From Micromonospora inositola (GTDB taxonomy: Bacteria > Actinomycetota > Actinomycetes > Mycobacteriales > Micromonosporaceae): 64,000 nucleotides of DNA. The stretch lies in contig NZ_LT607754.1 in the NCBI RefSeq assembly GCF_900090285.1, positions 5,792,001-5,856,000 on the forward strand. Reading direction: 5' to 3'. The notes under the pieces are model-generated. The model worked only from the letters and a program-made list of their open reading frames with translations, searched no databases and was not told the origin of the DNA. The position numbers and the translations under genes were made by a program. Shown here piece after piece: positions 1,567-42,968 of the stretch (positions within the stretch are counted from its first letter, which is position 1; each line of letters begins with the position of its first letter).

Positions 1567-1607
1567 CGGGACGGCCGGATTCGAACCGACGACCCCTTGA
1601 CCCCCAG
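1567..1607 (-). repeat. tRNA-Pro(GGG) 3' half, att-like direct repeat copy A
   Basis: Read on the minus strand this is the 3' part of a proline tRNA: anticodon loop CTGGGGG, the 3' anticodon-stem strand TCAAG, a TTCGAAT T-loop with a 5-bp stem, and the acceptor strand CGTCCCG. No D-arm or 5' acceptor half follows to the right, so it is not a functional tRNA. The base at the discriminator position is G here, but A in copies B, C and D. The same 41 bases recur at 5848, 13072 and 42927 in the same orientation. Confidence 0.85.
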
Positions 1608-2136
1608 AACTATCCGCCACACGTCCACGCACGTCACGCACGCTATTCCCAAGATCAGGACGTGTAGTCGACGGCATGCGGCCACCCATCGCGCACGCCG
1701 TGTGGTCCCCACCTGGTCTCCGGGCGCTACGCAACCGGTTGGCTACGAGCCAACCCAACCGACCCTCGGTACCCGGGCTCGCTGGGGTGATGCTGCGGGC
1801 CGCCCGTCGGCCTCTTGCAGACTAGGTGTGGACTGCCCGCCCGCCAATGGACGTCCGGAAGGTGACGTACGCCGTGGTCTCTCCGCGGCGGCCTGCAGCA
1901 AGCACCTGCAGGCCTTCGCCGGAACTCCGGTTACACATTGTCACCCCGTTGGACGGTTTTGCCGTTACCAGCCACTGTGCCCTCCGCTGATGACCAGCGA
2001 CCGAGCAGCTTCGACCATTGACCTTCTGCGCCTGCATCAGCCCCAGGCGCCGGAATTCTGCAGCGGTGGAGGAACTCGATGCTCTTCCAGACCGCCCCAA
2101 ACCCCGGCACGTGTCGTTGGCCCGAACGGTGGCCAC
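1608..2136. other. Gene-poor stretch inside the integration region
   Basis: I see no credible coding region, RNA or long repeat in these 529 bases. Open frames here are interrupted or have compositions unlike proteins. It separates tRNA-Pro remnant A from the endolysin gene and is probably decayed mobile DNA. Confidence 0.4.
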
Positions 2137-2883
2137 TCACTCCGAGGTAACGGGTGTAGTCCACGCAGCGCTCCAGGTTACCTGGCCAATCTTGCCGTCG
2201 GCCTTGCCGTCAACCAGCAGGCCCTTTTGCTCCTGGAACTGCTTGCACACCTTGGCCGTGCGGTCGTTGTAAAGACCATCGGTGCCGATGTGCCAGCCGC
2301 GCACATGCATGCGCTGCTGCCAGGCCCGCAGTCCGTCGCGGTAGGCCTTGGGCCCTTGCTGCCCAGTCACCGCGTGCGGGCCGGCCGTCGCAGGTCCGTA
2401 ATACCAGCCTTTCGGCAGGGGGAACGGCGGCACCTCCGACGGAGTTCTTCCCACCCCCGGGTACGCGGGATAGCCATATCCGACGATGTGTGAGCGTCGT
2501 ACCACCCGGTCCACACGGTCGCTGACGTTGCCCTCGATCGTGACGATACCGCCGTCTGGCAACGTCCGGATCACGATGCCGACATGGTTGATCCGATCAG
2601 GTCCGCCCGGCAACTGGAAGAAAGCGATTGCGCCGCGCCGTGGCCGCGACCCCCACTGGTTCTTTCCCTTGAACCAGTTGGCGTGACTGGGCGTGAAGGC
2701 AAAGCGCCCCACAATCTTGGACAGGCCCGCCTGGTCCGCGCACCACGACACGAACATGTCGCACCAGCGCACGTTCTCGAAGCCGGACGCGTACCACTTG
2801 CCATACTTGGTGAGGTTGTTCGGGCCCTCGTGATAGCCACGCTCTCCATCCGCGATCGCAATGATCTTGTCCGCTGAGCTCAT
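2137..2883 (-). CDS. Phage-type endolysin: CHAP-like amidase plus peptidoglycan-binding domain
   Basis: A 248-residue protein without a signal peptide. Residues about 5-125 form a CHAP/NlpC-type papain fold with the nucleophile in WCDMF (Cys41), the histidine in INHVGIV (His100) and a polar residue in EGN (Asn119). Residues about 170-240 form a peptidoglycan-binding domain (KAYRDGLRAWQ to GKIGQVTW). It should cut peptide bonds in peptidoglycan. Its ATG overlaps the stop of a small acidic gene (2880-3026). No holin, capsid or tail gene is nearby, so this is either a phage remnant or a cargo lysin of an integrative element. Confidence 0.82.
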   Translation of the reverse strand: MSSADKIIAIADGERGYHEGPNNLTKYGKWYASGFENVRWCDMFVSWCADQAGLSKIVGRFAFTPSHANWFKGKNQWGSRPRRGAIAFFQLPGGPDRINHVGIVIRTLPDGGIVTIEGNVSDRVDRVVRRSHIVGYGYPAYPGVGRTPSEVPPFPLPKGWYYGPATAGPHAVTGQQGPKAYRDGLRAWQQRMHVRGWHIGTDGLYNDRTAKVCKQFQEQKGLLVDGKADGKIGQVTWSAAWTTPVTSE

Positions 2884-3026
2884 GACTCGTCGTCCTCCTT
2901 GTCTGGGGGCACGTCAACCGCTGCCGCACTCTGGTCCCCGTCTTCGGGTTGTACGTCGCTGTCGGTGCCCCGCTGCTCCTTCAATTCGGCCAGCTCATCA
3001 AGCAGCTCGGACTCACGCTCTGACAT
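2880..3026 (-). CDS. Small acidic protein upstream of endolysin
   Basis: A 48-residue, strongly acidic protein (starts MSERESELLDELAELKEQ) with a predicted N-terminal helix and a low-complexity acidic tail. The ATG at 3024-3026 follows a good GGAGG ribosome site, and its TGA overlaps the ATG of the endolysin, so the pair is translationally coupled. I do not recognise a family. By position it could be a phage-type accessory protein; it has no membrane segment, so it is not a classical holin. Confidence 0.6.
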   Translation of the reverse strand: MSERESELLDELAELKEQRGTDSDVQPEDGDQSAAAVDVPPDKEDDES

Positions 3027-3101
3027 GGGGTCCACCTCCGATGGCGCAATTGTCAATACTTGTGGATGAAGGATCTTGGTTAACCGACAACGCAACCAGC
3101 G

Positions 3102-3770
3102 TCACTGCATCAGACGGCGTGGCTGGCGTCTGCGCTGCTTATCGTTTTGCTGTGAGGCCACCGCCGCGCACAGCCCTTCGAACAGGGACGGCTCTCCACT
3201 GAAGAACGGCTGCTTGCCGGCGAGGAAGAGAACCCTGCCGTCTTCGGGGTCGAGCACGGACCGCCCAACGGTACGGAGCACCTTCCGGCCCGTCTGCGGG
3301 TCGGTAAAGATGAGCTCGCCCACTGTCGTCTCGGTGGCCGAGTTGAAGTCGCCCGCCACGGCGAAATCTGTCGTGATGATGTTCGATTGCGTGTACGGCA
3401 CCGCGGCTCGGGTGAGCGGGTTGCTCCATGAGGCGCTCGTCCAGCGCTCGTGGTTGAGGACTCGCTCGATGTTGCCTTCGCCGTCGTACCAAATCGTCAG
3501 GCGCTGGTGTTCCACGCCCTGGTCGAAGATGTGGAACGCCTCGGCGCCGTCGCCGCAGACGATCCCCGTGTCGACGGGTTCCTCGACGCGCTCGCGGGTC
3601 CCCGAGCAGATCGTGCCCTCGCCGACAATCGTGCAGGTGAGGAAAGTCGGCGGGGGCGGATTGAGGTCGTCGGTCGCCGACTGCGCGGCAATCGCCGATG
3701 GGGCCCCGGTCAGCAGGGCTAACGCCCCGAGGGCCGCGAAGACGATCCCACGTCGCATTGCGATGACCAT
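3102..3770 (-). CDS. Secreted protein of unknown function
   Basis: A 222-residue protein with a clear Sec signal peptide (MVIAMRRG, then a hydrophobic run ending APSAIAAQSA). The mature part has several cysteines (for example FLTCTIVGEGTICSG and GIVCGDG), suggesting disulfides outside the cell. I know no named family for it. Starts at 3770 or 3758 are both possible; 3770 has a purine-rich GAAGTGGGGG upstream. It is a single gene, divergent from the IclR regulator at 3927. Confidence 0.6.
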   Translation of the reverse strand: MVIAMRRGIVFAALGALALLTGAPSAIAAQSATDDLNPPPPTFLTCTIVGEGTICSGTRERVEEPVDTGIVCGDGAEAFHIFDQGVEHQRLTIWYDGEGNIERVLNHERWTSASWSNPLTRAAVPYTQSNIITTDFAVAGDFNSATETTVGELIFTDPQTGRKVLRTVGRSVLDPEDGRVLFLAGKQPFFSGEPSLFEGLCAAVASQQNDKQRRRQPRRLMQ

Positions 3771-3926
3771 GATGGCCCCCACTTCAGACCGCCGCCGTTT
3801 ATCGGCGAGCCGACGATCCTCATCGTCTGCGTGACGCGACATGTCGCACCAGTAGGCCGTGTCACTCAGTGACCCGGGTCGTAGATCCGACAAGTGGTCC
3901 GGAACCGCTGGGCCGATAATTTCGCC

Positions 3927-4676
3927 ATGGACGATCACACCGTCACCGGCAGAGTCATGGCAGTTCTCGATGCAGTGGCGCATCTTTCCGGTCGGGCGAC
4001 CCTGGCCGCGCTCACGCGCATCACCGGCATCCCAAAGCCCACGGTCCGGCGAATCGCCGCGGACCTGGTGATTCGGGGCATGCTCGAGCGCGACGTTGAC
4101 GGCTACCGGCTCGGTGCGCACCTGTTCCACCTCGGGGCGGAAGCGGCAAGACAGCAGGGTGTTCGCCGCGACGCGGCGCCCTTCGTCCAGGACCTCTTCG
4201 CGCGTACCGGAGAAATCGCCTGGATGACCGCGTTCACCGACACGAGCAACACGCTTGTGGAGAGCGCATTCGGAAGCCAACACATCGACGATATGCGCAG
4301 GCCCTGGCCGGCGGTCATCCGCAGCGCCTATTTCCTGGCGACCGCCGCCGGGCGCCTCGTACTGGCGCATCGTCCGGAGCTGGTCGACGACGTGCGATCA
4401 CAGCCGCTACCCAGACTCACCCCGTACACGGTCACGAACTGGGGCCAGGTCGCCAATGCCGTCGGACTCGTCCGTGACAGCGGGGTTGCGATCGAGCAAG
4501 AACAGACGACGCTCGGTTACAGCTGCATCGCGGCAGGCGTACACGACCGGCAGGGCAAGCTTGTCGGCGCCATCGGCGTCTGCGGTCGCACCAGCACCTT
4601 CGTCGCCGAACGCCTGCGCAGGCCCGTCCGGAGCGCGGCCAACCAATTGAGCCAGATGGTCGCCGCACCGTACTGA
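3927..4676 (+). CDS. IclR family transcriptional regulator
   Basis: A 249-residue regulator. Residues about 5-65 form the winged helix (ATLAALTRITGIPKPTVRRIAADL) and the rest is the IclR effector-binding domain, including the family-typical end GAIGVCGRTS. I chose the ATG at 3927 because homology begins there, although the frame is open further upstream. No catabolic gene that it might control is adjacent: it lies between a secreted protein and IS debris, so its target is unknown. Confidence 0.85.
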   Translation: MDDHTVTGRVMAVLDAVAHLSGRATLAALTRITGIPKPTVRRIAADLVIRGMLERDVDGYRLGAHLFHLGAEAARQQGVRRDAAPFVQDLFARTGEIAWMTAFTDTSNTLVESAFGSQHIDDMRRPWPAVIRSAYFLATAAGRLVLAHRPELVDDVRSQPLPRLTPYTVTNWGQVANAVGLVRDSGVAIEQEQTTLGYSCIAAGVHDRQGKLVGAIGVCGRTSTFVAERLRRPVRSAANQLSQMVAAPY

Positions 4677-5559: not shown

Positions 5560-5847
5560 GCAAATGGCCGGGGAGTGGTGCCGCTCCTTCATAGCCCAGC
5601 TCCCTGGCTGGGCTATGTCAAGCCTAGGAGGTCACCAGCGGGCCGGGGCCGCGCCGGCGCGGCCCGCTTTGCGGGCCGCTTGACGAAGCGAGGAGCACAA
5701 CTCGGCAGGGAACAGGGCCCGCCACATGCCTGACCACCGGTCAAGGAGCGTCAACGACCGTCAATTTGACCGATCGTGGTCCCCAGAAAGCCGGAAAGGC
5801 TGACGCGATATCTCGGGCCAGCCTCCTGACCTGCTGTTTCACCTTGT

Positions 5848-5888
5848 CGGGACGGCCGGATTCGAACCGACGACCCCTTGACCCCCAG
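5848..5888 (-). repeat. tRNA-Pro(GGG) 3' half, att-like direct repeat copy B
   Basis: This is identical over 41 bases to copy A (1567) and has the expected A at the discriminator position (complement of t5847). The sequence to the right is not a 5' tRNA half. The 5560-5847 interval to its left contains small hairpins but no gene I can support. Confidence 0.85.
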
Positions 5889-6074
5889 AGATCGGCAATG
5901 CGGTCCCATTCGGCTCGCACCGCTGGTCGGCGGTCCGATGGCGGCCACCGTGGTTCCGCTTGGTGCCGTCGGTTGCTGTACATCGCTGCTGTACGTCAGG
6001 TCCGTTAGTCGCCCGCCTGCCGTAGATCGGCATTATCACAGCTGGCCGCTGAGAGGTATTGCTAACATGCGGAC

Positions 6075-7315: not shown

Positions 7316-7319
7316 TGAT

Positions 7320-8910: not shown

Positions 8911-9693
8911 ATGACACAGATCAACATGACAGACCAGGCCATTCGGCGCACAGCGATCGTCACGGGCGCGGCACGCGGCATCGGCGCCGGAGTGGCCAGG
9001 CGTTTGGCGCGCGATGGCCTCGCGGTCGCCGTGGTCGACCTGGTCGAGGAAGACTGCGCCGGCACCGTGGATGCCATCACCCGCGACGGCGGAACAGCGG
9101 CGGCGTTCGCCGCCGACGTCAACGACGAGTCGGCCGTGACCGCCGCTGTCGCTCGGATCGCCGCCGAGTTGGGACCACCGACGGTGCTGATCAACAACGC
9201 CGGCATCGGCGGCCCCAACGCCGGCGTCGAGGAGACCAGCACCCAGCAGTGGGACGCGGTCGTCGGGGTCAGTCTGCGGGGGGCGTTCTTCCTCACTAGG
9301 GCCGTGACCCCCTACATGATGGCGGCCGGCTGGGGACGGATCGTCAACATGTCGAGCATCTCCGCGCTCGGCGATTCCGGCCGCGTCGACTACGCCGCCG
9401 CGAAGGCCGGTCTGATCGGCTTCACCAAGTCGCTCGCGCTGCGGCTCGGGCAGCACGGCGTGACGGCGAACGCCATCGGGCCGGGCTTCGTGGTCAGTGA
9501 CATGACCAGGGTCGCGGCCCAGCGGCGGGGCCGCAGCTTCGACGAGCACCAGCGGATCGTGGCGCAGACCATCCCGGTGCGCCGGGTCGGCCAGCCCGAG
9601 GACATCGCGCACACCGCGTCGTACCTGGTCAGCCCCGAAGCCGGGTTCGTCTCCGGCCAGGTCATCTACGTCGCCGGCGGGCCGGTGGACTGA
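8911..9693 (+). CDS. SDR family oxidoreductase (FabG-like)
   Basis: A 260-residue classical short-chain dehydrogenase. TGAARGIG (residues 18-25) binds the cofactor, followed by NNAG, a serine in NMSSIS, and YAAAK for catalysis; the C-terminus VSGQVIYVAGGPVD is typical. The aspartate after beta2 (AVVDLV) suggests preference for NAD(H). It is the first gene of a rightward SDR-MFS-kinase group divergent from an ArsR-type regulator. The substrate is unknown; the neighbours suggest modification and export of a small molecule. Confidence 0.88.
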   Translation: MTQINMTDQAIRRTAIVTGAARGIGAGVARRLARDGLAVAVVDLVEEDCAGTVDAITRDGGTAAAFAADVNDESAVTAAVARIAAELGPPTVLINNAGIGGPNAGVEETSTQQWDAVVGVSLRGAFFLTRAVTPYMMAAGWGRIVNMSSISALGDSGRVDYAAAKAGLIGFTKSLALRLGQHGVTANAIGPGFVVSDMTRVAAQRRGRSFDEHQRIVAQTIPVRRVGQPEDIAHTASYLVSPEAGFVSGQVIYVAGGPVD

Positions 9694-9726: not shown

Positions 9727-10926
9727 ATGAGTCGCAGGCTGCTGGTGCTCCTCGCCCTCACCTGCGGGGTCGCCGTCGGAAACATCTACTTCCCCCAGAC
9801 GATCAGCTCGCTGGTCGCCGCCAGCCTGCACGTCAGCGCTGACTCGGCCGCCCTGGTGGTGACCGCGGTGCAGTTCGGCTATGCCGCCGGGATCTTCCTG
9901 TTGGTGCCGCTCGGCGACCGGCTCCCGCACCGCCCGCTGATCGTCACCCTGCTCGGCCTCACCGGGCTGGGGCTGCTCGCCACGAGCGCCGCACCCGCGC
10001 TGCCGCCGCTCGTCGGCGCGAGCGCCCTCGTCGGGGTCACGACCGTGGTCGCGCCGATCATCGGCCCCATGGCAGCCGGCCTCGTTGCCGACGACCAGCG
10101 CGGCGTGGTCAGCGGCACCCTGCTGAGCGGCTCCATCGCTGGCATGCTGCTGTCCCGCACCGTCGCGGGCACCATCGGCGACTGGTTCGGATGGCGGGCC
10201 CCCTACCTGACGGCGGCGGCATCCGTGCTGTTCATCGCCGTGGTCATGGCCCGCGTACTGCCGACAACACGACCGCCGTCCGGGCACCGATACCCGGCGC
10301 TGCTGGCCGAGTCGCTGCGCCTGCTGCGCACCGAGGCCGACCTGCGCCGCTCCTGCTTCTACCAGGCGACGGTCTTCGCCGGTTTCTCCGCGGTCTGGAC
10401 CGCCGTCGCGCTGCTGCTCACCGGCCCCACATACGACTTGGGCGCACCGGCGGTCGGAACGCTCGCACTGGTCAACGCGGCGACAATGCTGTGCACCCCG
10501 GTCGCCGGACGGCAGGTGGACCGTCGGGGCAGCGACGCGGTGAACCTGGCCTGCCTGCTCGGGATCATCGCCTCGGCCGCCGTCCTCGCGTTCGCCAGTC
10601 TCGGCGGGGCGGGGGGCCTCGCGGCACTGACGCTCGGCACGTTGCTGCTCGACGTCGGAATGCAGTCCGGCATGGTCGCAAACCAGGTACGCATCTACGC
10701 CCTGCGGCCCGAAGCCCGGAGCAGACTCAACACCGCCTACATGACCTGCGCCTACCTCGGCGGCAGCCTCGGCTCCTGGCTCGGAGCCCGCGCCTACGCC
10801 CACTTCGGGTGGCTGGGCGTATGCGCGGTCCTGGCGCTCCTCGCCGCGATCGCTCTTGCCCGCCACCTGGCGTCAAGCCCTGCCACCGGCCACCCTCGAG
10901 CCACAGTCGCCGCCCAGAACACCTGA
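9727..10926 (+). CDS. MFS transporter (drug:H+ antiporter-like)
   Basis: A 399-residue protein with about 12 hydrophobic segments in two halves. The N-terminal half contains the DRLPHRPLI loop, matching the major-facilitator motif A between helices 2 and 3 (GxLxDRxxxR type). Resemblance is closest to drug-efflux families of about 400 residues. It begins 33 bases after the SDR and is followed at once by a kinase-like gene, so the three are probably one transcript. The function is probably efflux; the substrate is unknown. Confidence 0.85.
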   Translation: MSRRLLVLLALTCGVAVGNIYFPQTISSLVAASLHVSADSAALVVTAVQFGYAAGIFLLVPLGDRLPHRPLIVTLLGLTGLGLLATSAAPALPPLVGASALVGVTTVVAPIIGPMAAGLVADDQRGVVSGTLLSGSIAGMLLSRTVAGTIGDWFGWRAPYLTAAASVLFIAVVMARVLPTTRPPSGHRYPALLAESLRLLRTEADLRRSCFYQATVFAGFSAVWTAVALLLTGPTYDLGAPAVGTLALVNAATMLCTPVAGRQVDRRGSDAVNLACLLGIIASAAVLAFASLGGAGGLAALTLGTLLLDVGMQSGMVANQVRIYALRPEARSRLNTAYMTCAYLGGSLGSWLGARAYAHFGWLGVCAVLALLAAIALARHLASSPATGHPRATVAAQNT

Positions 10927-10941
10927 CTAAGGATGATTGTC

Positions 10942-11886
10942 GTGCCAGCCTCTACCCACCGCGCACCCCTGTCTCCGGATGTGCCGATGCACGATGGCCA
11001 GCTCACAGTCTCACTCAACGCGGTGCGTGAGCTGGTGCACGCGCAGTTCCCCGAGTGGCGGAGCCTGCCTGTCGGGCGCGTCGCTTCGCAGGGAACGGTC
11101 AATGCCATCTTCCGTATCGGGGAACGGTTCACGGCCCGGTTCCCCCTTCAGCCTCGTGAGGTCGACGCGGCGCAGGGCTGGCTGGAACGTGAAGCGGAAG
11201 CGGCCCGAGAACTGATGGGTCGTACGCGATTTCCCACCCCCGAGCCGGTCGCCATCGGTGAACCCGGCGTCGGCTACCCGCTTCCATGGTCGGTACAGAC
11301 GTGGGTACCCGGTGTCGTAGCCACCGACCAGGACCCAGGTGACTCGTTCGCGTTCGCGCACGATCTGGCCGAGTTCGTCAGTGGCGTGCGAGCCATCGAC
11401 GCAGGGGGACGCACGTTCACAGGCCAGGGTCGCGGTGGCGAGCTACCAGCGCACGACGGGTGGATGGAGACCTGCTTCGGGCACAGCGAGACGCTGCTGG
11501 ACGTCCCGCTGCTCCGCCGGATCTGGGAGGTCATGAGGAAACTGCCGCGGGGCGAGGCCCCGGACAGGATGAACCATGGTGATCTCATTCCGGGAAACGT
11601 CCTCGTCTCCGACGGGCGGCTGGCCGGGGTTCTCGACGTGGGCGGACTGGGGCCTGCCGACCCTGCCCTTGACCTCGTAAGTGCCTGGCACCTGCTGGAA
11701 CGCGAGCCACGTCAGGCATTTCGGCAGCAACTCGGCTGCGACGATCTCGAATGGGAGCGCGGCAAAGCGTGGGCCTTCCAGCAGGCAATGGGGGTGGTTT
11801 GGTACTACCACCAGACCAACGCCACCATGAGTCGGATGGGCCGACGCACTCTCGCGCGCATCATTGCCGACCCGCCATCAGCCTGA
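10942..11886 (+). CDS. APH-family phosphotransferase (macrolide/aminoglycoside kinase-like)
   Basis: A protein of about 314 residues with the APH kinase fold: an N-terminal lobe with TVNAIFRIGERFTARFP, the catalytic loop MNHGDLIPGNVLV (HGD and Asn) and the metal-binding segment VLDVGGLGPADPALDLV in place of the usual DFGxxxxGDPxxD. The GTG at 10942 follows AAGGA at a good distance; an ATG at 10933 and another at 10987 are alternatives. It resembles MPH/APH-like enzymes common in actinomycetes. With the MFS gene before it, a detoxification role is plausible, but not shown. Confidence 0.82.
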   Translation: MPASTHRAPLSPDVPMHDGQLTVSLNAVRELVHAQFPEWRSLPVGRVASQGTVNAIFRIGERFTARFPLQPREVDAAQGWLEREAEAARELMGRTRFPTPEPVAIGEPGVGYPLPWSVQTWVPGVVATDQDPGDSFAFAHDLAEFVSGVRAIDAGGRTFTGQGRGGELPAHDGWMETCFGHSETLLDVPLLRRIWEVMRKLPRGEAPDRMNHGDLIPGNVLVSDGRLAGVLDVGGLGPADPALDLVSAWHLLEREPRQAFRQQLGCDDLEWERGKAWAFQQAMGVVWYYHQTNATMSRMGRRTLARIIADPPSA

Positions 11887-12124
11887 GCCGGCACGCCCGA
11901 ACGCGTCGTCGCAGCCAGCAAATACCGCCGCGTCGGCCCGCGCCGGATAGCCGCAAGTAACGCGCAGACATTGCGAGGAACCTCGCCGGGTCCGTATCCA
12001 CCGAGCGGCGGCGTACCGCAGCATGCGGCCGTCCCTGTGGTTCGCGCACCGCCACCTACTGGACGCGCCCTCCGGTCACGCGAACCGCAGAAGCGCAAGT
12101 CAGCAGCGAGATCACGTCATGGAG

Positions 12125-12166
12125 TGGGCCGCCAGGGACTCGAACCCTGAATCCCTCTCGCGCCGC
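12125..12166 (-). repeat. tRNA 3' half (identity unassigned), att-like, fused to integrase fragment
   Basis: The minus strand shows a T-arm CAGGG-TTCGAGT-CCCTG, the acceptor strand GCGGCCC, discriminator A and part of the anticodon-stem side. The rest of the tRNA is missing. The first codon of the truncated integrase lies immediately to the right. I cannot assign the amino acid because the anticodon loop is broken. Confidence 0.55.
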
Positions 12167-12997
12167 ATGGATCATGGCGACCTTCCCTCCGCACGCACGG
12201 TCAAGGGAATCCGCGCGGTTCTCCGCTCGGCGCTCTCCCAGGCCGTCGTGGAGGAGCTGGTGGCCAAGAACGTCGCCGCTCTCGTGAAGCTCCCGCCGAT
12301 CCGCGCCCGCAAAGGAAAAGCGTGGAGCAGCGAGGAAGCCCGCGCCTTCCTGGAATCGTCGCGCGACGGCGACGACTACCTCTACGCCGCATACGTCCTG
12401 GTCCTCGTGCTCGGCCTGCGCAAGGGCGAAGTCCTCGGCCTCACCTGGGACCGCATCGAGTGGGACGGCTGGGAAAAGCCGTGCACCCCGCACGGGGAGG
12501 ACTTCTGCGAGCACTGCCGCGACGACCACGACATCAGCCTGGTCATCGACAAGCAACTCCAACGGGTACGCGGACGGCTGCTGCACCGGGCCACCAAGAC
12601 CGAAGAGTCCGACGCTCCCCGCCCGCTGCCGGCCATCTGCGTCACCGCGCTGCGGCACCGCTACCGGCAGCAGGAGGCGGCCAGGGACAAGGCGGGCGCG
12701 GCGTGGCACGACACCGGCATGATCTTCACGACCCGCTACGGGCTGCCGGTCGAGCCGCGGAACTTCAACCGGTCCTACGACAGTCGCATCGTCCGCGCTG
12801 GCGTCCCGAAGATCACGGTCCACGACGCCCGGCGCACCTGCGGTTCCCTGCTGGTCGACCTGGACGTGCATCCCCGGGTCGCCATGGCGATCCTGCGACA
12901 CGCGGACTTCTCGATCACGATGGAGATCTACAGCCAGGTCTCATCCAAGGCCACCCGGGAAGCCCTCCGGAAGCTCGGCCAGAGCCTCGATCAATGA
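12167..12997 (+). pseudogene. Tyrosine integrase, N-terminally truncated
   Basis: The catalytic domain of a phage/AICE tyrosine recombinase is complete: the first arginine in LGLRKGEVLGL, HDARR (HxxR) and the active tyrosine in MEIYSQV near the C-terminus. The arm-binding domain and most of the core-binding domain (about 100-150 residues) are missing: homology starts at residue ~6, right beside a tRNA 3' half. The gene ends 75 bases left of tRNA-Pro copy C, the position expected for int next to attP in pSAM2-like elements. It is probably inactive. Confidence 0.8.
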
Positions 12998-13032
12998 GCC
13001 GTTGCTGTACTTCGCTGCTGTACAGGACCAGA

Positions 13033-13062
13033 AGAGGCCATCCGGAAGACCGAATGGCCTCT
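13033..13062. terminator. Hairpin between integrase and tRNA-Pro copy C
   Basis: A 9-bp stem, AGAGGCCAT with ATGGCCTCT, around a 12-base loop. It lies between the end of the integrase fragment and the 3' end of the tRNA half, where the tRNA terminator would be. Confidence 0.6.
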
Positions 13063-13071
13063 GACCTGCGT

Positions 13072-13112
13072 CGGGACGGCCGGATTCGAACCGACGACCC
13101 CTTGACCCCCAG
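13072..13112 (-). repeat. tRNA-Pro(GGG) 3' half, att-like direct repeat copy C
   Basis: This is identical over 41 bases to copies A and B. To its right lies the sequence TAGTCCGGTGGCCCAGCGGC and about 150 further bases that are also found, with some mismatches, right of copy D (42969 on). The adjacent left gene is an integrase. Confidence 0.85.
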
Positions 13113-13519
13113 TAGTCCGGTGGCCCAGCGGCATGCTCACGCGCGTTTGCCCAGGTCGCCTGAGCATAGATCGGCCGAGTAAAGGAGTCTTCGCACGACT
13201 CCCCTGCCTCCATGGACTTCCCTGGCCAGACGAGCAGGACGTGACCTCCCACCGGCTGCCGTCGTGTCGGAGGGGGGACACGAACCGAAACTCCACGCCC
13301 GCTCGTCCTGACCAGTGAGTTCCTACTCGGCCGCGAGGGATGAGTGGTGTAGGCCTGGCCGGGTCCGCCGCCTCGCCGAGCGGGACCGCCTCCAGCACGA
13401 CCCGCACCGGCCCGACCGAGGCCAGATCGGCCGAGCGCGGGATCACCGCGGCCCGCCGAGACCGCCAACCCACGCTTTGCTAAACGCCGCTCGCGAGCAG
13501 ACACCCCTGCCCTCGTCCA
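13113..13519. other. Left-end-like element sequence shared with the right flank of copy D
   Basis: No gene is supported in these 407 bases. The first ~150 bases are homologous to 42969-43110 (for example GCATGCTCACGC, GTTTGCCCAGGTCG and CGGCCGAGTAAAGGA in the same order), so they probably represent the same end of two related elements. Confidence 0.5.
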
Positions 13520-14269
13520 TCACCTCGGGAGGCGTAGCCCGTGCATGCCGCCGTCGACGGCCAACGCGGAGCCGGTCGTGGCAGCGGCCGCCGGCGACGC
13601 CAGGTAGTGCACCGCGTCGGCCACCTCCTCGGCCGTGACAAGCCGGCCCGTCGGCTGCCGCGCCTCCAGCCGGCGCCGCTCCCCGTCCGGGTCCGCGGAC
13701 GTGGCGAGCAGCCGGGCGACCCACGGGGTGTCGACAGTGCCGGGGCACACGCAGTTGACGCGGATGCCGTCGACGATCAGGTCGGCGGCCATGGCCAGCG
13801 TCATCGCGTGTACGGCGCCCTTGGTCGCCGAGTACAGGACCCGGTTGGGCAGGCCCGCCCGCGCGACGACCGAGGAAATGTTCACGATGGCCGCATGGGC
13901 GCTGCGGCGCAGGTACGGCAGGGCCGCCCGGCTCACCCGGGCGACCCCGACGACGTTGATGTCGAGCACCCGATGCCATTCGGCGTCGTCGTTGGCGTCG
14001 ACACCGCCGACGGCGCTGACGCCCGCGTTGTTGACCACGATGTCCACGCCGCCGAACGCCGCGTCGACTTGGGCGAGCGCCGCCTCGACAGACGCGGCGT
14101 CGGCCACGTCGGCGTGCACGGGCAGCACTCGGTCGTCGGTCCGGTCGCCCGCGGTCAGGTCCAGCGCGGCTACCCGCGCGCCGGCATCCACGCACCGGCG
14201 CACGCACGCGGCCCCGATGCCCGATGCGCCGCCGGTGACAACCGCCACCAGACCATCCATTGTGCCCAC
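13520..14269 (-). CDS. SDR family oxidoreductase (possible 2-keto-3-deoxy-L-fuconate dehydrogenase)
   Basis: A 249-residue classical SDR: TGGASGIG near the N-terminus, NNAG, a serine in NISSV, YSATKG for catalysis, and a GSALAVDGG C-terminus. It is the last gene of the leftward operon after the FAH-family hydrolase and the enolase remnant. In the non-phosphorylating L-fucose route a 2-keto-3-deoxy-fuconate dehydrogenase of the SDR family acts just before the FAH-type hydrolase, so this role fits by position. The family is certain; the substrate is inferred from context. Confidence 0.82.
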   Translation of the reverse strand: MGTMDGLVAVVTGGASGIGAACVRRCVDAGARVAALDLTAGDRTDDRVLPVHADVADAASVEAALAQVDAAFGGVDIVVNNAGVSAVGGVDANDDAEWHRVLDINVVGVARVSRAALPYLRRSAHAAIVNISSVVARAGLPNRVLYSATKGAVHAMTLAMAADLIVDGIRVNCVCPGTVDTPWVARLLATSADPDGERRRLEARQPTGRLVTAEEVADAVHYLASPAAAATTGSALAVDGGMHGLRLPR

Positions 14270-14306
14270 CTAATGGCCTCCTATCGTTGGTTCGGTGAGG
14301 TGTCGG

Positions 14307-14690
14307 TCATCGCCACGCGGCGTCATATGGATCTCGGAAGCGGTCGAGCGCCTCGGAGATGATCCCGGCGGAGCATTCGGGCGCGGTCGGCGCGACGTAG
14401 TGGCCGTCGCCATCACCACCGCGTCGACGAAAGGTCGCGCAGGCGCGCGATGCGCCTGCGCAGCCCGACGCCCGCCGCAGGTGTGCGGACCGATACGTTG
14501 CGGGCAGCGGCGAGCAGCAGGCTGCCGCGACTTCGTTTACACCGCCGACCCGGCGGGCGTCGATCTGCACGACGTCGCTGACCTCGGCGTGCGGTAGCGG
14601 TTTGACCATCACCTGGCTGGCCATGTGGTCGCCAGTGGCCAACCCCGGTCGGGCGGGCGCCCGGCGGGTGAGCATCCGGGGCGGGGTTCC
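14307..14690 (-). pseudogene. Enolase-superfamily sugar-acid dehydratase (L-fuconate dehydratase-like), decayed
   Basis: One minus-strand frame gives LATGDHMASQVMVKPL and then DVVQIDARRVGGVNE, matching the active-site region of L-fuconate dehydratase-type enzymes (ATGEH and QIDAxRxGGVNE). The sense then moves to another frame (SLLLAAARNVSVRTPAAGVGL, compare LLLAAxxxVRVCPHAGGVGL) and returns for the C-terminus YVAPTAPECSAGIISEALDRF. Most of the ~430-residue protein is missing, with at least two frame changes. It lies between the FAH-family hydrolase and the terminal SDR, where a dehydratase would be expected in the pathway. Confidence 0.65.
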
Positions 14691-14766
14691 TCGCGTCCGA
14701 CCCGCCGACCTCTGCGGGGGCCAGGAAACGCAGGCGACGAGGTGGATCGTGGCGAGCTCATCGTGG

Positions 14767-15618
14767 TCACGCCTGCCGGCAGGTGTTGCGTTGCCGGCCC
14801 AGGCCGGCCACCTCGACCTCGACGACATCACCCGGGCGTAAGTAGCCGAAGCGGCCCGACAGCGCCACCCCCTGCGGCGTCCCGGTGTTGATCACATCGC
14901 CTGGCTCCAGCACGGTGAACTGGGACAGGTGCCACACCAGGTGCGCCACCCCGAACACCATGTCCTTGGTGGAGGAATCCTGGCGCGGCTCGCCGTTGGC
15001 CCAGCTGCGCAGCGGAAGGTCCTGCGGGTCGCCGACCTCGTCGGGGGTGACCAGCCACGGTCCGAGCGGGTTGAACGTCTCGCAGCTCTTGCCCTTGGAC
15101 CATTGCCCGCCGGAGCGGTCAAGCTGGAATTCCCGCTCGGACACGTCGTTCGATGTGGCATAGCCGGCCACGCAGGTCAGCGCATCATCGGGTGTGTCGA
15201 GGTAGCGGGCGCGAGCGCCGATCACAACGGCCAGCTCCACCTCCCAGTCGGTTCGCGTCGAACCGCGCGGGATCACCACGTCGTCGTACGGCCCCACAAC
15301 GGTGTTGGGTGCCTTGTAGAAGATGACCGGTTCGGCTGGAGGGGCGGCGCCGGACTCGGCCGCGTGCGCGGCGTAGTTCATCCCGATGCACAGCACGACG
15401 CCCGGCCGCGCCACCGGGGCTCCGACACGCAGGCCGGAGACGTCCACCTCCGGCAGCCGGCCCGACTGGTAGGCGGCGCGAACCCGCGCCACACCGCCCG
15501 TGGCGAAGAACCTGCTGTCCAGGTCCGCCGTAATCGGCGTCAGGTCATGGTGCCGGCCGCCCTCACCGACGAGCACCGGGCGTTCGTGGCCGGCCGGGCC
15601 CACCCGCATCAGCTTCAT
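14767..15618 (-). CDS. Fumarylacetoacetate hydrolase-family protein (2,4-diketo-3-deoxy-L-fuconate hydrolase-like)
   Basis: A 283-residue FAH-fold enzyme. Visible features are IGMNYAAHAAE, a metal-binding glutamate pair in TDWEVELAVVIG, the SNDVSEREFQLD segment, and the INTGTPQGVALS end. The length and these motifs fit the group that contains ureidoglycolate-lyase-like and 2,4-diketo-3-deoxy-L-fuconate hydrolase proteins. It would cleave a diketo sugar acid with a divalent metal. Its ATG overlaps the UxuA-like stop by one base. The neighbours support a sugar-acid role rather than aromatic degradation. Confidence 0.85.
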   Translation of the reverse strand: MKLMRVGPAGHERPVLVGEGGRHHDLTPITADLDSRFFATGGVARVRAAYQSGRLPEVDVSGLRVGAPVARPGVVLCIGMNYAAHAAESGAAPPAEPVIFYKAPNTVVGPYDDVVIPRGSTRTDWEVELAVVIGARARYLDTPDDALTCVAGYATSNDVSEREFQLDRSGGQWSKGKSCETFNPLGPWLVTPDEVGDPQDLPLRSWANGEPRQDSSTKDMVFGVAHLVWHLSQFTVLEPGDVINTGTPQGVALSGRFGYLRPGDVVEVEVAGLGRQRNTCRQA

Positions 15619-17524: not shown

Positions 17525-17604
17525 GACTCCCGTCCGAAGGTGTTGAAGGTCCGGCTCGACCCAGCCACCGGCTCGTCTACTGTCACTTCCAGCCCCATCG
17601 TCAT
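17521..17604 (-). CDS. Possible 27-residue ORF bridging SDR and lactonase genes
   Basis: It starts with ATG overlapping the SDR stop (ATGA) and ends with TGA overlapping the lactonase ATG, so it is coupled on both sides. The peptide has no recognisable domain. It could be a remnant of a larger gene or simply a translational bridge. I cannot tell whether the peptide has a function. Confidence 0.3.
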   Translation of the reverse strand: MTMGLEVTVDEPVAGSSRTFNTFGRES

Positions 17605-18431: not shown

Positions 18432-18558
18432 ACCGTCCTCCTCGTCATTCGGCGGTTATCCCCGTCCACGCCCGACCGCCCTGGAACGTCGTCACCGGAC
18501 CAGTCGGTGGGCGGACATGGCAATTTCAATCAGTCGTGACGTCCGTTACCGTCGGCGG

Positions 18559-25120: not shown

Positions 25121-25140
25121 GAATGCGATGGAGGCGGCGC

Positions 25141-26226: not shown

Positions 26227-26312
26227 CGGCGGGGCCGCTCGCAACCACCACCGGCGCTAGCTTTCCGGCTCCGGGTCTCGGCGCCGTAACGACGAGGTTT
26301 CGGCGCACCATT

Positions 26313-26324
26313 GACAACGTTATC
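26313..26324. promoter_or_regulatory. LacI-type operator over the ABC importer promoter
   Basis: GACAACGTTATC differs by one base from the perfect palindrome. It overlaps a consensus-like -35 TTGACA (26311-26316), with a candidate -10 (TAGCCT) 17-18 bases further on. A repressor bound here would block the solute-binding-protein promoter. Confidence 0.7.
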
Positions 26325-26449
26325 TTCGCCGCCCTAGCCTTTGCCGCACCCATACCGGCGAGGCCTCACCAAGCAAGGCCCCAGCGCCCGCCGAGCGACA
26401 GGAGTGCCGGGCAAGCCCGCTCGGCGGACCTTCATTCGAGGAGGAACGG

Positions 26450-27964: not shown

Positions 27965-27971
27965 CAAGAAT

Positions 27972-28009
27972 CGGGTCCCGGCGGAGGCAATCGTCTCCGC
28001 CGGGACCCG
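27972..28009. terminator. Very strong intra-operon stem-loop after the binding-protein gene
   Basis: A perfect 15-bp GC-rich stem (27972-27986 with 27995-28009) and an 8-base loop, with no T-run after it. It lies between the binding-protein and permease genes and would stabilise the upstream mRNA or attenuate readthrough, giving excess binding protein over permease. Confidence 0.75.
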
Positions 28010-28038
28010 GCTTCCGTCAGGCGGGGAAGGGCGACGGG

Positions 28039-28992: not shown

Positions 28993-28995
28993 GCC

Positions 28996-29832
28996 ATGGG
29001 TCCGAAGCGGTGGCGGTCGAGCGCCGGCAGCGCCGTGCGGGCACTCATCCTCGTCGTGTTGTTCGGGGCATCGCTCTACCCGATCGTCTTCGTCGTAACT
29101 TCTTCTCTGAAGACGAAGTCGGCGTTCGCCACCAACTACTTCCTGCCCGATCGTCACGTGCACCTCGACAACTACCGTGCTGCGGCGGGTGAGGTGCTGC
29201 CCTCGGTCTGGAACTCGGTGCTGGTCAGCACGGCCACCGTCGCGCTCGTTCTGGCCTGTGGCGTGCCGGCGGCGTACGCGTTTGCCTGGCGTCGCTTCCG
29301 CGGCCAACAGCTCATCTACACCGTCGCCATCTGCACGATGATGGTGCCGGCCGTGCTCACCTTCGTGCCGATGTTCGTGCTCGTCCGCGATCTCGGGCTC
29401 ATCGACACGCAGTGGGCCCTGGTGCTGCCGTACACCGCGGGAACCATTGGTCTGTCGGTCTTTCTGCTGCGCGCGTTCTTTCGCGCTGTTCCCCAGGAGC
29501 TGGTCGAGGCGGCGAAGCTCGACGGCTCCGGCGACCTGCGCGTGCTCTGGCACGTTGTGCTGCCGCTGAGTCTTCCGACACTGGCCACCCTCGTCACGCT
29601 CAACGTGCTGTGGACGTGGAACCAGTTCCTGTGGCCGCTGGTGACGATCAGCTCCGAGGAGCAGCGTCCCGTGCCTGTGGCGCTCGCGTTCCTCACCGGC
29701 GATCGGTACAACGTGGACTACCCCCAGCTGATGGCCGGCTACGTGATCTCCGCCCTGCCGCTGGTCGTCGTACTGGCAATCACGATGCGAGCGTTCATCC
29801 GGGGCATGCTCTCCGGTGCGCTCAAGGCGTAG
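28996..29832 (+). CDS. Sugar ABC transporter permease (MalG-like)
   Basis: A 278-residue second permease, three bases after the first. It has six membrane segments and the EAA loop VEAAKLDGSGDLRVLWHVVLPL, and ends in a typical RGMLSGALKA tail. It completes the binding protein-permease-permease importer controlled by the LacI-type operator. The IS5-type insertion begins 123 bases downstream, so anything once cotranscribed further on has been separated. Confidence 0.9.
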   Translation: MGPKRWRSSAGSAVRALILVVLFGASLYPIVFVVTSSLKTKSAFATNYFLPDRHVHLDNYRAAAGEVLPSVWNSVLVSTATVALVLACGVPAAYAFAWRRFRGQQLIYTVAICTMMVPAVLTFVPMFVLVRDLGLIDTQWALVLPYTAGTIGLSVFLLRAFFRAVPQELVEAAKLDGSGDLRVLWHVVLPLSLPTLATLVTLNVLWTWNQFLWPLVTISSEEQRPVPVALAFLTGDRYNVDYPQLMAGYVISALPLVVVLAITMRAFIRGMLSGALKA

Positions 29833-29955
29833 TAGCACCCCAGCCCGCTGATCGACTCGACGTGGGCCTATCACCTTGCGGACCGATGACCAGGATCCCG
29901 TCATGCGGGTGGATGTCGATGGGGTGGCCCGGGGCGAGCGTAGCGCACGTAGTAA

Positions 29956-30826
29956 GGGCGCGTCTCATTTGGATGGTCGTTGGCCTGGGGGCATGATTTG
30001 CTTCCGTGGACGAGGCCATGATCCGTACCTGGGCGCCGGATGATCTGTGGGAGATAGCGGCGCCGTTGATCCCGCCCGCGCCGGTTCGTCGGCAGGGTGG
30101 TGGTCGCCGGCGGGTGGATGACCGGGCGGTGTTGGCCGCGATCGTGTACGTGACCCAGGCGGGTTGTTCCTGGTGGAAGCTGCCTGAGGCGTCGTTCGGT
30201 GTCACCAGGGCCACCGCGCACCGCAGGTTCACCGAGTGGACCGCGGCCGGGTTCTGGCTCCGGCTGCACGAGGCGACCCTGGACCGGCTCGGCGCCGACC
30301 GGCGGATCGATTGGTCGAGGGCGGTGGTCGACTCGATCAGTGTGCGGGCGGAAAAAGGGGCGATCTGACTGGCCCAAACCCGGTCGACCGCGGCAAACCA
30401 GGCAGCAAACTCCACGTCATCTGCGACCGGAAGGGGCTGCCCCTGGCTGTGCTGGTCACCGCCGCGAACGTCCACGACAGCCAACTGCTGCTGCCCATGC
30501 TCGACAGCGTCCCGGCGATCCGCACACCCAACGGGCGCCGCCGGTGGCGGCCAGACAAGTTGCACGCCGACAAGGCGTACGACGCCCGCGAGCTGCGCCG
30601 CGAGGTCCGGCGACGGGGGATCAAGGTACGCATCGCCCGTAAGGGCATCGAGTCCTCCACGCGTCTGGGCCGGCACCGCTGGGTCGTTGAAGCCTGCATG
30701 TCCTGGCTGATGCGCTACCGGCGCCTCGTTCGCCGCTATGACCGCAAGGGCGATCACTTCGAAGCCTTTGCCACGATCGCCAGCACCCTGATCTGCTACC
30801 GCCGCCTCACCAAATGAGACGCGTCC
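29956..30826. mobile_element. IS5-type insertion sequence, copy 1 (871 bp)
   Basis: The ends are imperfect inverted repeats of about 17 bp (GGGCGCGTCTCATTTGG against GGACGCGTCTCATTTGG). A 3-bp target duplication TAA flanks both ends, so the boundaries are seen directly. The element has the two-frame transposase of the IS427-like part of the IS5 family. A second copy of the same length lies at 41154-42024 with only a few base differences. Confidence 0.9.
30006..30817 (+). CDS. IS5-family transposase, made by -1 frameshifting (copy 1)
   Basis: The first frame (GTG 30006 to 30368) encodes the N-terminal domain with WEIAAPLIPPAP and WWKLPEASFG and the first catalytic Asp (VVDSISVRA). It stops just after GAAAAAGGGG. 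The -1 frame continues with DRGKPGSKLHVICD, HADKAYDA (second Asp) and RHRWVVEACMSWL (Glu), ending at 30817. The A5-G4 run is the likely slip site for a fusion DDE transposase. Both copies keep the same arrangement, which argues for programmed frameshifting rather than decay. Confidence 0.85.
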
Positions 30827-41060: not shown

Positions 41061-41153
41061 GGTGCACGCTCCCTCGTTGGTCAGCGGGGCAATCTGCCCA
41101 TCACGATCAGGTTGGCAGCCGGTGTCAAGACGGTCAATCGACACCCGCTCTTA

Positions 41154-42024
41154 GGGCGCGTCTCATTTGGATGGTCGTTGGCCTGGGGGCATGATTTGCT
41201 CCCGTGGACGAGGCCATGATCCGCACCTGGGCGCCGGATGATCTCTGGGAGATAGCGGCGCCGTTGATCCCGCCCGCGCCGGTTCGTCGGCAGGGTGGTG
41301 GTCGCCGGCGGGTGGATGACCGGGCGGTGCTGGCCGCGATCGTGTACGTGACCCAGGCGGGTTGTTCCTGGTGGAAGCTGCCTGAGGCGTCGTTCGGTGT
41401 CACCAGGGCCACCGCGCACCGCAGGTTCACCGAGTGGACCGCGGCCGGGTTCTGGCTCCGGCTGCACGAGGCGACCCTGGACCGGCTCGGCGCCGACCGG
41501 CGGATCGACTGGTCGAGGGCGGTGGTCGACTCGATCAGTGTGCGGGCGGAAAAAGGGGCGATCTGACTGGCCCAAACCCGGTCGACCGCGGCAAACCAGG
41601 CAGCAAACTCCACGTCATCTGCGACCGGAAGGGGCTGCCCCTGGCCGTGCTGGTCACCGCCGCGAACGTCCACGACAGCCAACTGCTGCTGCCCATGCTC
41701 GACAGCGTCCCGGCGATCCGCACACCCAACGGGCGCCGCCGGTGGCGGCCAGACAAGTTGCACGCCGACAAGGCGTACGACGCCCGCGAGCTGCGCCGCG
41801 AGGTCCGGCGACGGGGGATCAAGGTACGCATCGCCCGTAAGGGCATCGAGTCCTCCACGCGTCTGGGCCGGCACCGCTGGGTCGTTGAAGCCTGCATGTC
41901 CTGGCTGATGCGCTACCGGCGCCTCGTTCGCCGCTATGACCGCAAGGGCGATCACTTCGAAGCCTTTGCCACGATCGCCAGCACCCTGATCTGCTACCGC
42001 CGCCTCACCAAATGAGACGCGTCC
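41154..42024. mobile_element. IS5-type insertion sequence, copy 2 (871 bp)
   Basis: Same length, orientation and inverted repeats as 29956-30826, with about half a dozen substitutions. It is flanked by a different 3-bp duplication, TTA, so it is an independent insertion. The TNA pattern of both duplications shows the target preference directly. Confidence 0.9.
41204..42015 (+). CDS. IS5-family transposase, made by -1 frameshifting (copy 2)
   Basis: Same two-frame structure as the first copy: frame 0 from GTG 41204 to 41566 and the -1 frame to 42015, joined at GAAAAAGGGG. The catalytic DDE residues are all retained. Codon differences from copy 1 are mostly silent (GAT/GAC, CTG-GCT/CTG-GCC), indicating recent activity and selection on the protein. 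Confidence 0.85.
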
Positions 42025-42052
42025 TTAGTCGGCTGGCCGCTGGCCGTAGCGC

Positions 42053-42562
42053 TCAGCGGCAAGCTTCTGCCCGGACGTGCACACCGCACCACGGCGGCAG
42101 GTCGGCTGCCCACACCCGCCAACCGCCCGCGTCTCGCCGCGTCTCGAACCGCCACGGGTGGGCTGCGCCGCTGAGGTTGGCCTGTTCGTTCCACCAGATC
42201 GCGTGGACCTGGGCGGTCACCGTCGCGCGGTCGTCGCCCTGGTCCTCGACGTCAATCGGTCCGACCGTCTCAAGCTTCGACGGCACGTTGCCGCGTTCCA
42301 TCTCGCCGCGGTACTGCCGCCACTGCCGCAGCAGCTCGTCATGACGCCTGCCGGCCAGTACCCGCGACAGACCGATCTCCTCGCCACTGCTCATCTGGAG
42401 CACGTACACGCTCACCGCCGCATCCGGTGTCGCCTCACCACGCTCTGCCTCGACCTGCCGCAGAACAGCCCACGGCACCGGCACCGCCACGATCCCGGTA
42501 CACAGCACGGCTACGAGCGACAGAACCACCCACGGCCAATGGCGCGGCGGTCGGATCAGCAC
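42053..42562 (-). CDS. Membrane-anchored protein of integrative-element type, unknown function
   Basis: A 169-residue protein with one N-terminal membrane helix (WPWVVLSLVAVLCTGIVAVPVPWAVL) and a soluble domain ending GWRVWAADLPPWCGVHVRA. Proteins with this C-terminal pattern are familiar from actinomycete conjugative elements, but I know no function. The GTG start overlaps the integrase fragment on the other strand. Its 3' end is 28 bases from the IS5 copy. Confidence 0.55.
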   Translation of the reverse strand: MLIRPPRHWPWVVLSLVAVLCTGIVAVPVPWAVLRQVEAERGEATPDAAVSVYVLQMSSGEEIGLSRVLAGRRHDELLRQWRQYRGEMERGNVPSKLETVGPIDVEDQGDDRATVTAQVHAIWWNEQANLSGAAHPWRFETRRDAGGWRVWAADLPPWCGVHVRAEACR

Positions 42563-42842
42563 AGCAGTACTGCGGGACGCGACCCACTGGGACGAGGTCG
42601 TGACTGCCTTGGGCTACGAGCATCTGCGACGTCACGATCTGCGCCACACCGGGCTGACGTGGATGGCAGATGCCGGCGTACCGGTGCACGTCCTGCGAAA
42701 GATCGCCGGGCACGGATCGCTCACCACGACCCAGCGGTATCTGCACCCCGATCGCCAGTCGATCACGGACGCGGGAACGGCGTTGAGCGCTCACTTGAGG
42801 GTTCGCCGGTCCCCAGCTGGTCCCCAGCTACGCGCCGTCTAG
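42546..42842 (+). pseudogene. Tyrosine integrase, C-terminal remnant
   Basis: About 95 residues remain: RISTAVLRDATHWDEVV, then HDLRHTGLTWMA (HxxR), HGSLTTTQRYLHPD (HxxY-type end with the active Tyr). The first catalytic Arg and everything N-terminal is gone. It ends 85 bases left of tRNA-Pro copy D, the same arrangement as the integrase beside copy C, but it is a different integrase type. Confidence 0.8.
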
Positions 42843-42873
42843 CTGCCGATTCCCGACTACTTCAGAAACCAAC

Positions 42874-42915
42874 AGAGGCCGCTGACCAGGGCATACGCCC
42901 CGATTAGCGGCCTCT
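42874..42915. terminator. Hairpin between integrase remnant and tRNA-Pro copy D
   Basis: AGAGGCCGCT pairs with AGCGGCCTCT (10 bp) around a 22-base loop. It matches the position, and the AGAGGCC core, of the hairpin next to copy C. Confidence 0.6.
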
Positions 42916-42926
42916 CTATGTACTGT

Positions 42927-42968
42927 CGGGACGGCCGGATTCGAACCGACGACCCCTTGACCCCCCAG
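42927..42968 (-). repeat. tRNA-Pro(GGG) 3' half, att-like direct repeat copy D
   Basis: The same sequence as copies A-C with one extra C in the anticodon loop (six instead of five). The right flank continues with about 150 bases similar to that of copy C. Confidence 0.85.

Follow-up and report, generated by a model that had tools for sequence, protein, structure and literature searches.

Why does one stretch of the Micromonospora inositola chromosome hold the 3′ half of the same proline tRNA gene four times? The 64,000 nucleotides analysed here (contig NZ_LT607754.1, positions 5,792,001 to 5,856,000), referred to as the window, contain four 41-base halves of tRNA-Pro(GGG), which separate blocks of different gene content, including genes of sugar and inositol catabolism. 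A preliminary description, made from the letters of the window, read the halves as the footprint of pSAM2-like actinomycete integrative and conjugative elements (AICEs) that had integrated repeatedly at one tRNA gene. Comparison with other genomes suggests that the halves are very probably attachment (att) junctions of an accretion array at tRNA-Pro(GGG), and the differing arm types and integrase families indicate that the blocks come from different elements that target the same site.

All four halves lie on the minus strand (Table 1). Copies 1 to 3 have no mismatch, and copy 4 has two, equivalent to one extra G in the anticodon loop. ARAGORN called no tRNA gene in the window or in 3-kb loci around the four copies, and hence no 5′ half. 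A 24-base part of the half, with 3 mismatches allowed, gave 4 matches in the window versus 0 in 100 shuffles, which excludes chance, and the reversed 41-mer pattern gave 0 matches across 151 sampled Micromonospora genomes (designated by G-numbers below). The M. inositola genome is a single contig of 6,707,994 bases, in which six copies of the 41-mer were found at up to 3 mismatches. The preliminary description had placed the functional tRNA gene to the right on the minus strand; a search beyond the window, as it had suggested, located an intact tRNA-Pro(GGG) gene at 5,867,208-5,867,282 on that strand (window coordinates 75,208-75,282), 11.2 kb right of the window end. The locus therefore has the form of an array, with repeats of a tRNA 3′ end in one orientation and a single intact tRNA gene at one end, and the earlier account was correct on the four minus-strand halves, on the missing 5′ halves and on block sizes of about 4.2, 7.2 and 29.8 kb. 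The sixth, weaker 41-mer copy (549,192-549,232, 3 mismatches) is far from the array, and an identical variant occurs in G090.

Each core joins two flanking sequences. We designated the flank on the tRNA 3′ side of a core as its Q arm and that on the other, far-end side as its P arm, and defined arm types by single-linkage clustering, which ignores relatedness. The catalogue comprised 98 core sites (44 in intact tRNAs) from the M. inositola genome and the loci of relatives, without sites that had less than 60 bases of flank; it replaced an earlier one of 106 sites (53 intact), its sites are now placed on contigs, and from loci L011-L040 only L027 and L038 entered it. Leftwards from the tRNA, the array reads tRNA/Q2, P2/Q6 (copy 4), P2/Q4 (copy 3), P3/Q1 (copy 2) and P1/Q3 (copy 1). 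Each of these Q arms starts with a hairpin, including the one beside the tRNA gene (z -6.0; the others are given in Table 1), and these hairpins would terminate transcription of the tRNA. An integrase gene often follows the hairpin arm.

The arms of the array match att arms beside the same tRNA in other Micromonospora, in agreement with the proposal of repeated integration at one tRNA gene, and complete junctions were also recovered. The P1/Q3 junction (1510-1723, 214 bp) is 87.9% identical to the far junction of an AICE-like element in G100, the P3/Q1 junction (5635-5994) has its counterpart in G021 (367 bp, 75.7%), and the P2/Q6 junction (42651-43084) in G039 (435 bp, 82%). The Q3 junction (98-100 bp) shows 88-90% identity to the tRNA side of G073, G067, G060, G006 and G061 and 93-94% to far-end copies in G043 and G084, with homology ending at 1509-1510, suggesting that the Q3 arm is a remnant of the basal layer. 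A C-terminal fragment of a family III CoA-transferase gene (1125-1496) starts about 70 bp from copy 1, near the point where homology to other Q3 sites ends.

The two ends of an interval tend to belong together. The 49 adjacent arm pairs included Q1-P1 (10 times), Q2-P2 (8), Q1-P5, Q4-P3 and Q6-P1 (4 each), Q5-P4 (3), Q7-P6 (2) and 14 pairs seen once. Outside the M. inositola genome the commonest partner was present in 34 of 45 pairs, whereas 5000 shuffles averaged 22.2 and never exceeded 28, singly seen arm types being counted as followers in both the real and the shuffled pairings. These comparisons indicate that arm types pair consistently across genomes. By this measure blocks 1 (Q1-P1), 2 (Q4-P3) and 4 (Q2-P2) have matching ends, whereas those of block 3 (Q6-P2) are mismatched. 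The earlier equation of one block with one element fails for block 3. Since the Q6-P2 pair is found only there (one of the 49 pairs), block 3 is best read as a composite, in which a Q6-type element and the far end of a P2-type element have probably been joined, presumably with loss of an internal junction.

An accretion array of this kind would form as follows. A tyrosine integrase would recombine the att core of an incoming element, which corresponds to the tRNA 3′ half from the anticodon loop to the acceptor end, with the tRNA gene, so that the element supplies the 3′ half and the hairpin arm of the restored gene, and the displaced half with its older arm moves to the far (left) end. Later elements with other integrases would reuse the same core, and the halves would pile up left of a single functional tRNA gene, the layers nearest to it being the youngest. 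From left to right, the layers would be a Q3 trace, a Q1-P1 remnant, a Q4-P3 remnant, the composite with Q6 and P2 ends, and the Q2-P2 element beside the tRNA. At least five integrations would be needed and probably six: there are six element traces when Q3 is counted, a number that falls to five if the arms of block 3 were swapped within a single element.

To find integrases, open reading frames of at least 120 amino acids lying no more than 2.5 kb from a site were aligned to reference integrases, an approach that replaced a regular-expression search, which had missed most integrases. At 44 of the 98 sites an integrase was matched. For arms Q1, Q2, Q3, Q4 and Q6, 36 of 77 sites matched, and the matching reference always belonged to the arm type of the site, an agreement that is partly built in because the references were taken from these same arm types. 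Identities of these own-type matches were mostly 62-100%, and 41-47% at four sites. The Q7, Q8 and Q11 sites gave weak matches only (27-38%), and one Q9 site matched IntC.

The three integrases of the array, IntB, IntC and IntD, adjoin copies 3 and 4 and the tRNA gene, respectively, and fall to different reference families. The array gave no full-length integrase. Of six alignments of IntB with Q4 loci, the two longest end at 12179 and 12186 and the other four nearer the core, and IntB probably lacks its N-terminal part. The IntC fragment shows 95% identity over the final 99 residues of the integrase encoded by the G100 AICE-like element. IntD (74,232-75,095) matches its relatives to residue 269 and continues with 18 unrelated residues; the five relatives that were read have 319 residues. 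By these alignments IntC and IntD are clearly truncated. Among 77 named loci of the IntD family, tRNA-Pro(GGG) lies 107-131 bp upstream in 33 and only its half in 5; the others have a call for an Ala tRNA (1) or no tRNA call or a contig edge (38). The sequence adjoining the start of IntB (12120-12157) is the 3′ half of another tRNA-like sequence, which has two relatives in the genome (1,273,167 and 6,508,737); none of the three was called as a tRNA.

The identification of the layers as pSAM2-like AICEs was borne out for none of the blocks. AICE-like elements do use tRNA-Pro(GGG): in G113, a 12.6 kb Q1-P5 interval at this tRNA encodes an integrase, a Xis-like HTH_17 protein, RepSA (468 bits), DUF2637 and an FtsK domain, and in G100 a 14.7 kb Q6-P1 interval encodes an integrase, HTH_17, DUF3631 (RepAM type) and Prim-Pol, with a weak FtsK match below the cut-off (E 0.00072). 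Sampled intervals in G043, G084, G065, G134 and G108 revealed no AICE genes in the few proteins scanned. In the blocks, where genes were called with a custom script, Pfam scans of 48 of the 59 called block genes found no gene for replication (RepSA, RepAM/Prim-Pol), excision or transfer. A tblastn search of 113 kb of the M. inositola region with the Rep, Xis and Tra proteins of the G113 and G100 elements gave no match, with integrases the only hits, and PF01580 was absent from the region among the matches listed (14 of the 16 own matches). Since no rep, xis or tra gene was found, the blocks are remnants and not working AICEs. The Q6 end of block 3 is the one block end with a direct AICE-like relative, that of G100.

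A cis-mobilizable element (CIME) is a block flanked by att sites that has neither recombination nor transfer genes of its own. Block 1 fits this definition, having att cores on both sides and no integrase or transfer gene in its three called genes or at its right end. Nothing in the sequence suggests that any block could be excised by an integrase of its own, and cis-mobilisation of the blocks by another integrase may be possible.

The halves could also be explained without a succession of different elements. A tandem array of one element family, formed by repeated integration or duplication, would account for the 157 bp of P2 arm that copies 3 and 4 have in common at 87%, but the four left arms and the tRNA arm represent five types, the three integrases match different reference families and the gene contents differ between blocks; we regard it as very improbable. 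Scattering of tRNA fragments by insertion sequence (IS) elements or general rearrangement, with no site-specific integration, has slightly less chance still: block 3 does hold IS copies and at least one junction (74,288) is illegitimate, yet the copies agree in orientation, core ends and hairpin arms, integrase genes adjoin copies 3 and 4 and the tRNA, and whole junctions of P arm, core and Q arm recur in other species. A more serious competitor concerns block 3, which might be one genuine element with swapped arms, Q6 on the tRNA side and P2 on the far side. Module exchange between AICEs is described in excerpts of one report (PMC9513070), and the Q6 class pairs once with P5; however, Q2 is the partner of 8 of the 9 P2 ends whose partner is known and Q6 pairs with P1 in 4 of 6 cases, and the Q6-P2 combination was seen in this block only, so that we consider an element with swapped arms rather unlikely and prefer a composite of two element ends.

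The sugar and inositol genes raise the question of whether they arrived with the elements. Window positions 13,264-33,852 match G043 (5,776,168-5,795,801) in pieces of 96.6-98.6% identity, short gaps aside. On the "der" side of the tRNA, M. inositola and G043 are also 96.6% identical over the first 1.5 kb, so the block 3 sugar genes shared with G043 may be inherited genes of close sisters. In G086, window 13,478-29,876 corresponds to 5,506,539-5,524,789 and window 61,275-74,293 to 5,563,831-5,574,914. In both genomes the block 3 cluster is far from tRNA cores, and no core (up to 5 substitutions), arm or reference integrase was found in 120 kb of G086 or 60 kb of G043. The cargo stretches of G084 (contig C66), G010 and G014 likewise contained no core at up to 5 substitutions, although these are contig pieces and say little. 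The G043 copy of the cluster abuts a broken serine recombinase gene (PF07508; L108 133-681). Weak core-like matches occur in G043 at 5,848,788 (40 bp, 88%), 53 kb from the cargo copy, and in G086 at 5,808,585 (56 bp, 84%).

The inositol set of block 4 comprises KduI/IolB, a thiamine pyrophosphate (TPP) enzyme, PfkB, a Cgl0159-like protein, a TIM-barrel protein and GFO/IDH/MocA proteins, and the TPP enzyme is taken as IolD from its family and context. This iol cluster was matched in G084, G086, G010 and G014 up to 74,286-74,293, and the relatives of IntD match from 74,288; an illegitimate join fuses the cluster to IntD here, after codon 269. A related, rearranged iol cluster (79-82%) lies inside a Q2-P2 interval of the tRNA-Pro array of G065 itself. 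Both sets are accessory: GH38 is present at ≥96% identity in 3 of the 151 genomes, with relatives of 48-52% in five more, and this type of IolD (≥81%) in 7 of 101 genomes, with a second copy at 63% elsewhere in the M. inositola genome.

By these observations the sugar genes are accessory and recurrent at the tRNA-Pro(GGG) site. The block 3 genes that G043 and G086 hold away from cores speak against movement as cargo, which the preliminary description had considered. Entry as true cargo of integrating elements draws support from the accessory distribution of GH38 and IolD and from the G065 cluster within its array; against it stand the core-free copies in G043 and G086 and the illegitimate fusion of the iol cluster to IntD, and we hold it to be possible but unlikely. 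Somewhat less probable is a common origin, in which the sugar genes now in blocks 3 and 4 formed a single linked accessory region, like that of G086, that came into the array in one piece and was later divided by the copy 4 junction. The two clusters have the same order and strand in G086, and a short piece of window 31.3-31.7 kb flanks the G086 iol cluster on both sides; yet the G086 DNA between the clusters gave no other window match, the G065 array holds the iol cluster without block 3 genes among its matches, and copy 4 is a normal P2/Q6 junction, present also in G039. The sugar genes may thus have been trapped in the accretion array rather than carried in, and the linkage in G086, which is free of halves, means that the elements are not necessarily the source of the genes in blocks 3 and 4.

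Several results weigh against the accretion array or restrict it. Fifty-four of the 98 sites had no integrase match, among them 41 of the 77 sites with arms Q1, Q2, Q3, Q4 and Q6, and block 1 has no integrase trace in its three called genes or right end. Eleven of the 45 pairs outside the M. inositola genome deviate from the commonest partner, the genomes compared are related and so are not independent samples, and block 3 breaks the rule of one element per block. Q1 is a wide class: the RepSA-type element in G113 falls under it, but its arm fails to align with the arm of copy 2, so block 1 cannot be called pSAM2-like. G086 keeps the block 3 and iol clusters in window order and orientation, separated by 39 kb where the window has 31.4 kb; for the cargo this corresponds in part to the arrangement, with order kept and tRNA halves lacking, that the preliminary description had named as contrary to its proposal, and the comparison concerned these two clusters, with blocks 1 and 2 and the junctions outside it. 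Neither the 12 kb left of the window nor window 1-1608 had a long collinear match in six relatives, among the matches listed. Comparison with related strains for an empty site, which the preliminary description had recommended, yielded no confirmed one among the relatives compared. Q3, the commonest arm in single-copy genomes, was considered as the bare chromosomal flank and dropped after an integrase match was obtained at 9 of the 15 Q3 sites.

Repeated use of this tRNA is widespread in the genus. The 41-mer (3 mismatches) is present in all 151 sampled genomes, with at least two copies in 86, at least three in 43 and a maximum of seven, reached in G043, G090 and G093. The half of the single control tRNA, tRNA-Arg(CCT), had at least two copies in 46 of 151 genomes and at least three in 5 of 151 (Fisher p = 5e-6 with relatedness ignored). 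In other genera of the family, tRNA-Pro was detected at 3 mismatches in 69 of 121 genomes, and 22 intact loci were examined: IntC-like integrases were found at L200, L207 and L209, IntD-like ones at L203, L204 and L214 (33 residues only) and a weak IntB match at L219, with none at 15 of the 22, three of which have less than 400 bases of flank. We tentatively propose that at least six lineages of tyrosine integrases might share tRNA-Pro(GGG) as a docking site, each bringing a hairpin arm of its own that replaces the terminator of the tRNA gene on integration, and that long arrays could pair the arms of different elements around new sets of genes, as in block 3, and so generate att-bounded composites which a newly arriving integrase might move as a unit, with Q2-P2 intervals repeatedly holding inositol catabolism (M. 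inositola, and G065 at about 80% identity).

Table 1. Positions and properties of the array features in window coordinates
Feature	Position	Strand	Basis and remarks
Q3 arm, hairpin on 3′ side of copy 1	1510-1566	minus	z -7.0
Copy 1, tRNA-Pro(GGG) 3′ half, P1 and Q3 junction	1567-1607	minus	core search, arm types
Block 1, Q1-P1 type remnant, 4.2 kb	1608-5847		gene calls, arm types; CHAP/peptidoglycan-binding protein 2137-2883, IclR regulator 3894-4676
Q1 arm, weaker hairpin	5771-5847	minus	z -2.7; matching arms in G085, G068, G021, G017
Copy 2, tRNA-Pro(GGG) 3′ half, P3 and Q1 junction	5848-5888	minus	core search, arm types
Block 2, Q4-P3 type remnant, 7.2 kb	5889-13071		gene calls, Pfam, arm types; SDR 8911-9693, MFS transporter 9727-10926, APH-fold phosphotransferase 10933-11886, IntB
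IntB, tyrosine integrase	12167-12997	plus	PF00589; end ~75 bp from copy 3
Q4 arm with hairpin	13011-13071	minus	z -5.2; 12179-13113 at 89.7% to G021
Copy 3, tRNA-Pro(GGG) 3′ half, P2 and Q4 junction	13072-13112	minus	core search, arm types
P2 far-end arm (second copy right of copy 4)	13113-13262	minus	alignment, arm types
Block 3, 29.8 kb, P2 arm left and Q6 arm right	13113-42926		arm pairing; probably composite
Block 3 sugar genes	13264-33852		Pfam scans, comparison with G043; UxuA-like, GH38, GH43/130-like, LacI regulator, sugar ABC transporter, FAA hydrolase, SDRs
IntC fragment, tyrosine integrase, catalytic C-terminal part	42345-42842	plus	PF00589 profile 113-170; end ~85 bp from copy 4
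Q6 arm with hairpin	42866-42926	minus	z -6.3; 42542-42965 at 79-81% to G100, G017, G007
Copy 4, tRNA-Pro(GGG) 3′ half plus one G, P2 and Q6 junction	42927-42967	minus	core search, arm types
Block 4, Q2-P2 type, 32.2 kb	42968-64000, on to 75,207 beyond the window, then intact tRNA-Pro(GGG)		sugar and inositol catabolic genes, IntD

Blocks 3 and 4 also contain transposable elements. Two nearly identical IS copies with a DDE transposase (99% over the 300 bp compared) lie in block 3 at 29957-30826 and about 41153-42015, and the first of them is missing at the same place in G043. Block 4 carries a transposase-like unit duplicated about 1.34 kb apart (46065-48204, 81-86% alike), with related copies in a Q2-P2 interval of G084, and a TnpB-like element at 62254-63572 (ORF 62350-63558, OrfB_IS605 and Cas12f1-like TNB domains) that is missing at the same place in G086, G084, G010 and G014.

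The halves can be read as ordered layers, each of which has its own arm resembling a terminator and, in the cases where one was detected, an integrase of its own; the 151 sampled genomes allow comparison of the same site. It thus offers a natural series on how stacked elements decay, mix their ends and trap accessory pathways, and a warning that an att-flanked block is not necessarily one element. A literature search among Creative Commons-licensed PMC papers, which is no proof of absence, gave no paper on a tRNA-Pro array in Micromonospora among the titles listed.

Accretion of ICESt1 and CIMEs in Streptococcus thermophilus, with att-flanked blocks that lack recombination genes, was reportedly described by Pavlovic in 2004; host and site are different there. 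Other related systems come from actinomycetes. In Actinoplanes sp. SE50/110, according to excerpts of its description, the AICE pACPL has a 43-nt att identity at the 3′ end of a proline tRNA, carries int, xis and repSA directly downstream of attP and was inferred to occur also as circular copies (PMC3364876); it is a single element, whereas the Micromonospora array is decayed and stacked. Tandem AICEs at tRNA-Lys in Frankia and at tRNA-Arg in S. avermitilis, in one case with integrases of two sub-families, are two elements detected as AICEs in the parts of the source that treat them (PMC3218068), compared with five or six layers here. A further parallel is provided by the tRNA-Arg arrays of Streptomyces, for which excerpts of PMC9513070 describe AICEs and remnants with different integrases stacked with identical direct repeats between them, a basal remnant common to strains, and partial integrases with cargo at another site. 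The M. inositola locus resembles these arrays in that different elements and integrases are stacked at one tRNA; as far as those excerpts go, it differs in the tRNA, tRNA-Pro(GGG), in the genus, in reaching up to seven cores per genome, in blocks in which no transfer gene was found and in having one block with mismatched arms. The array is a new, well resolved example of a known accretion process, and its most interesting points are the probably composite block 3 and the association of integrase families with particular hairpin arms.

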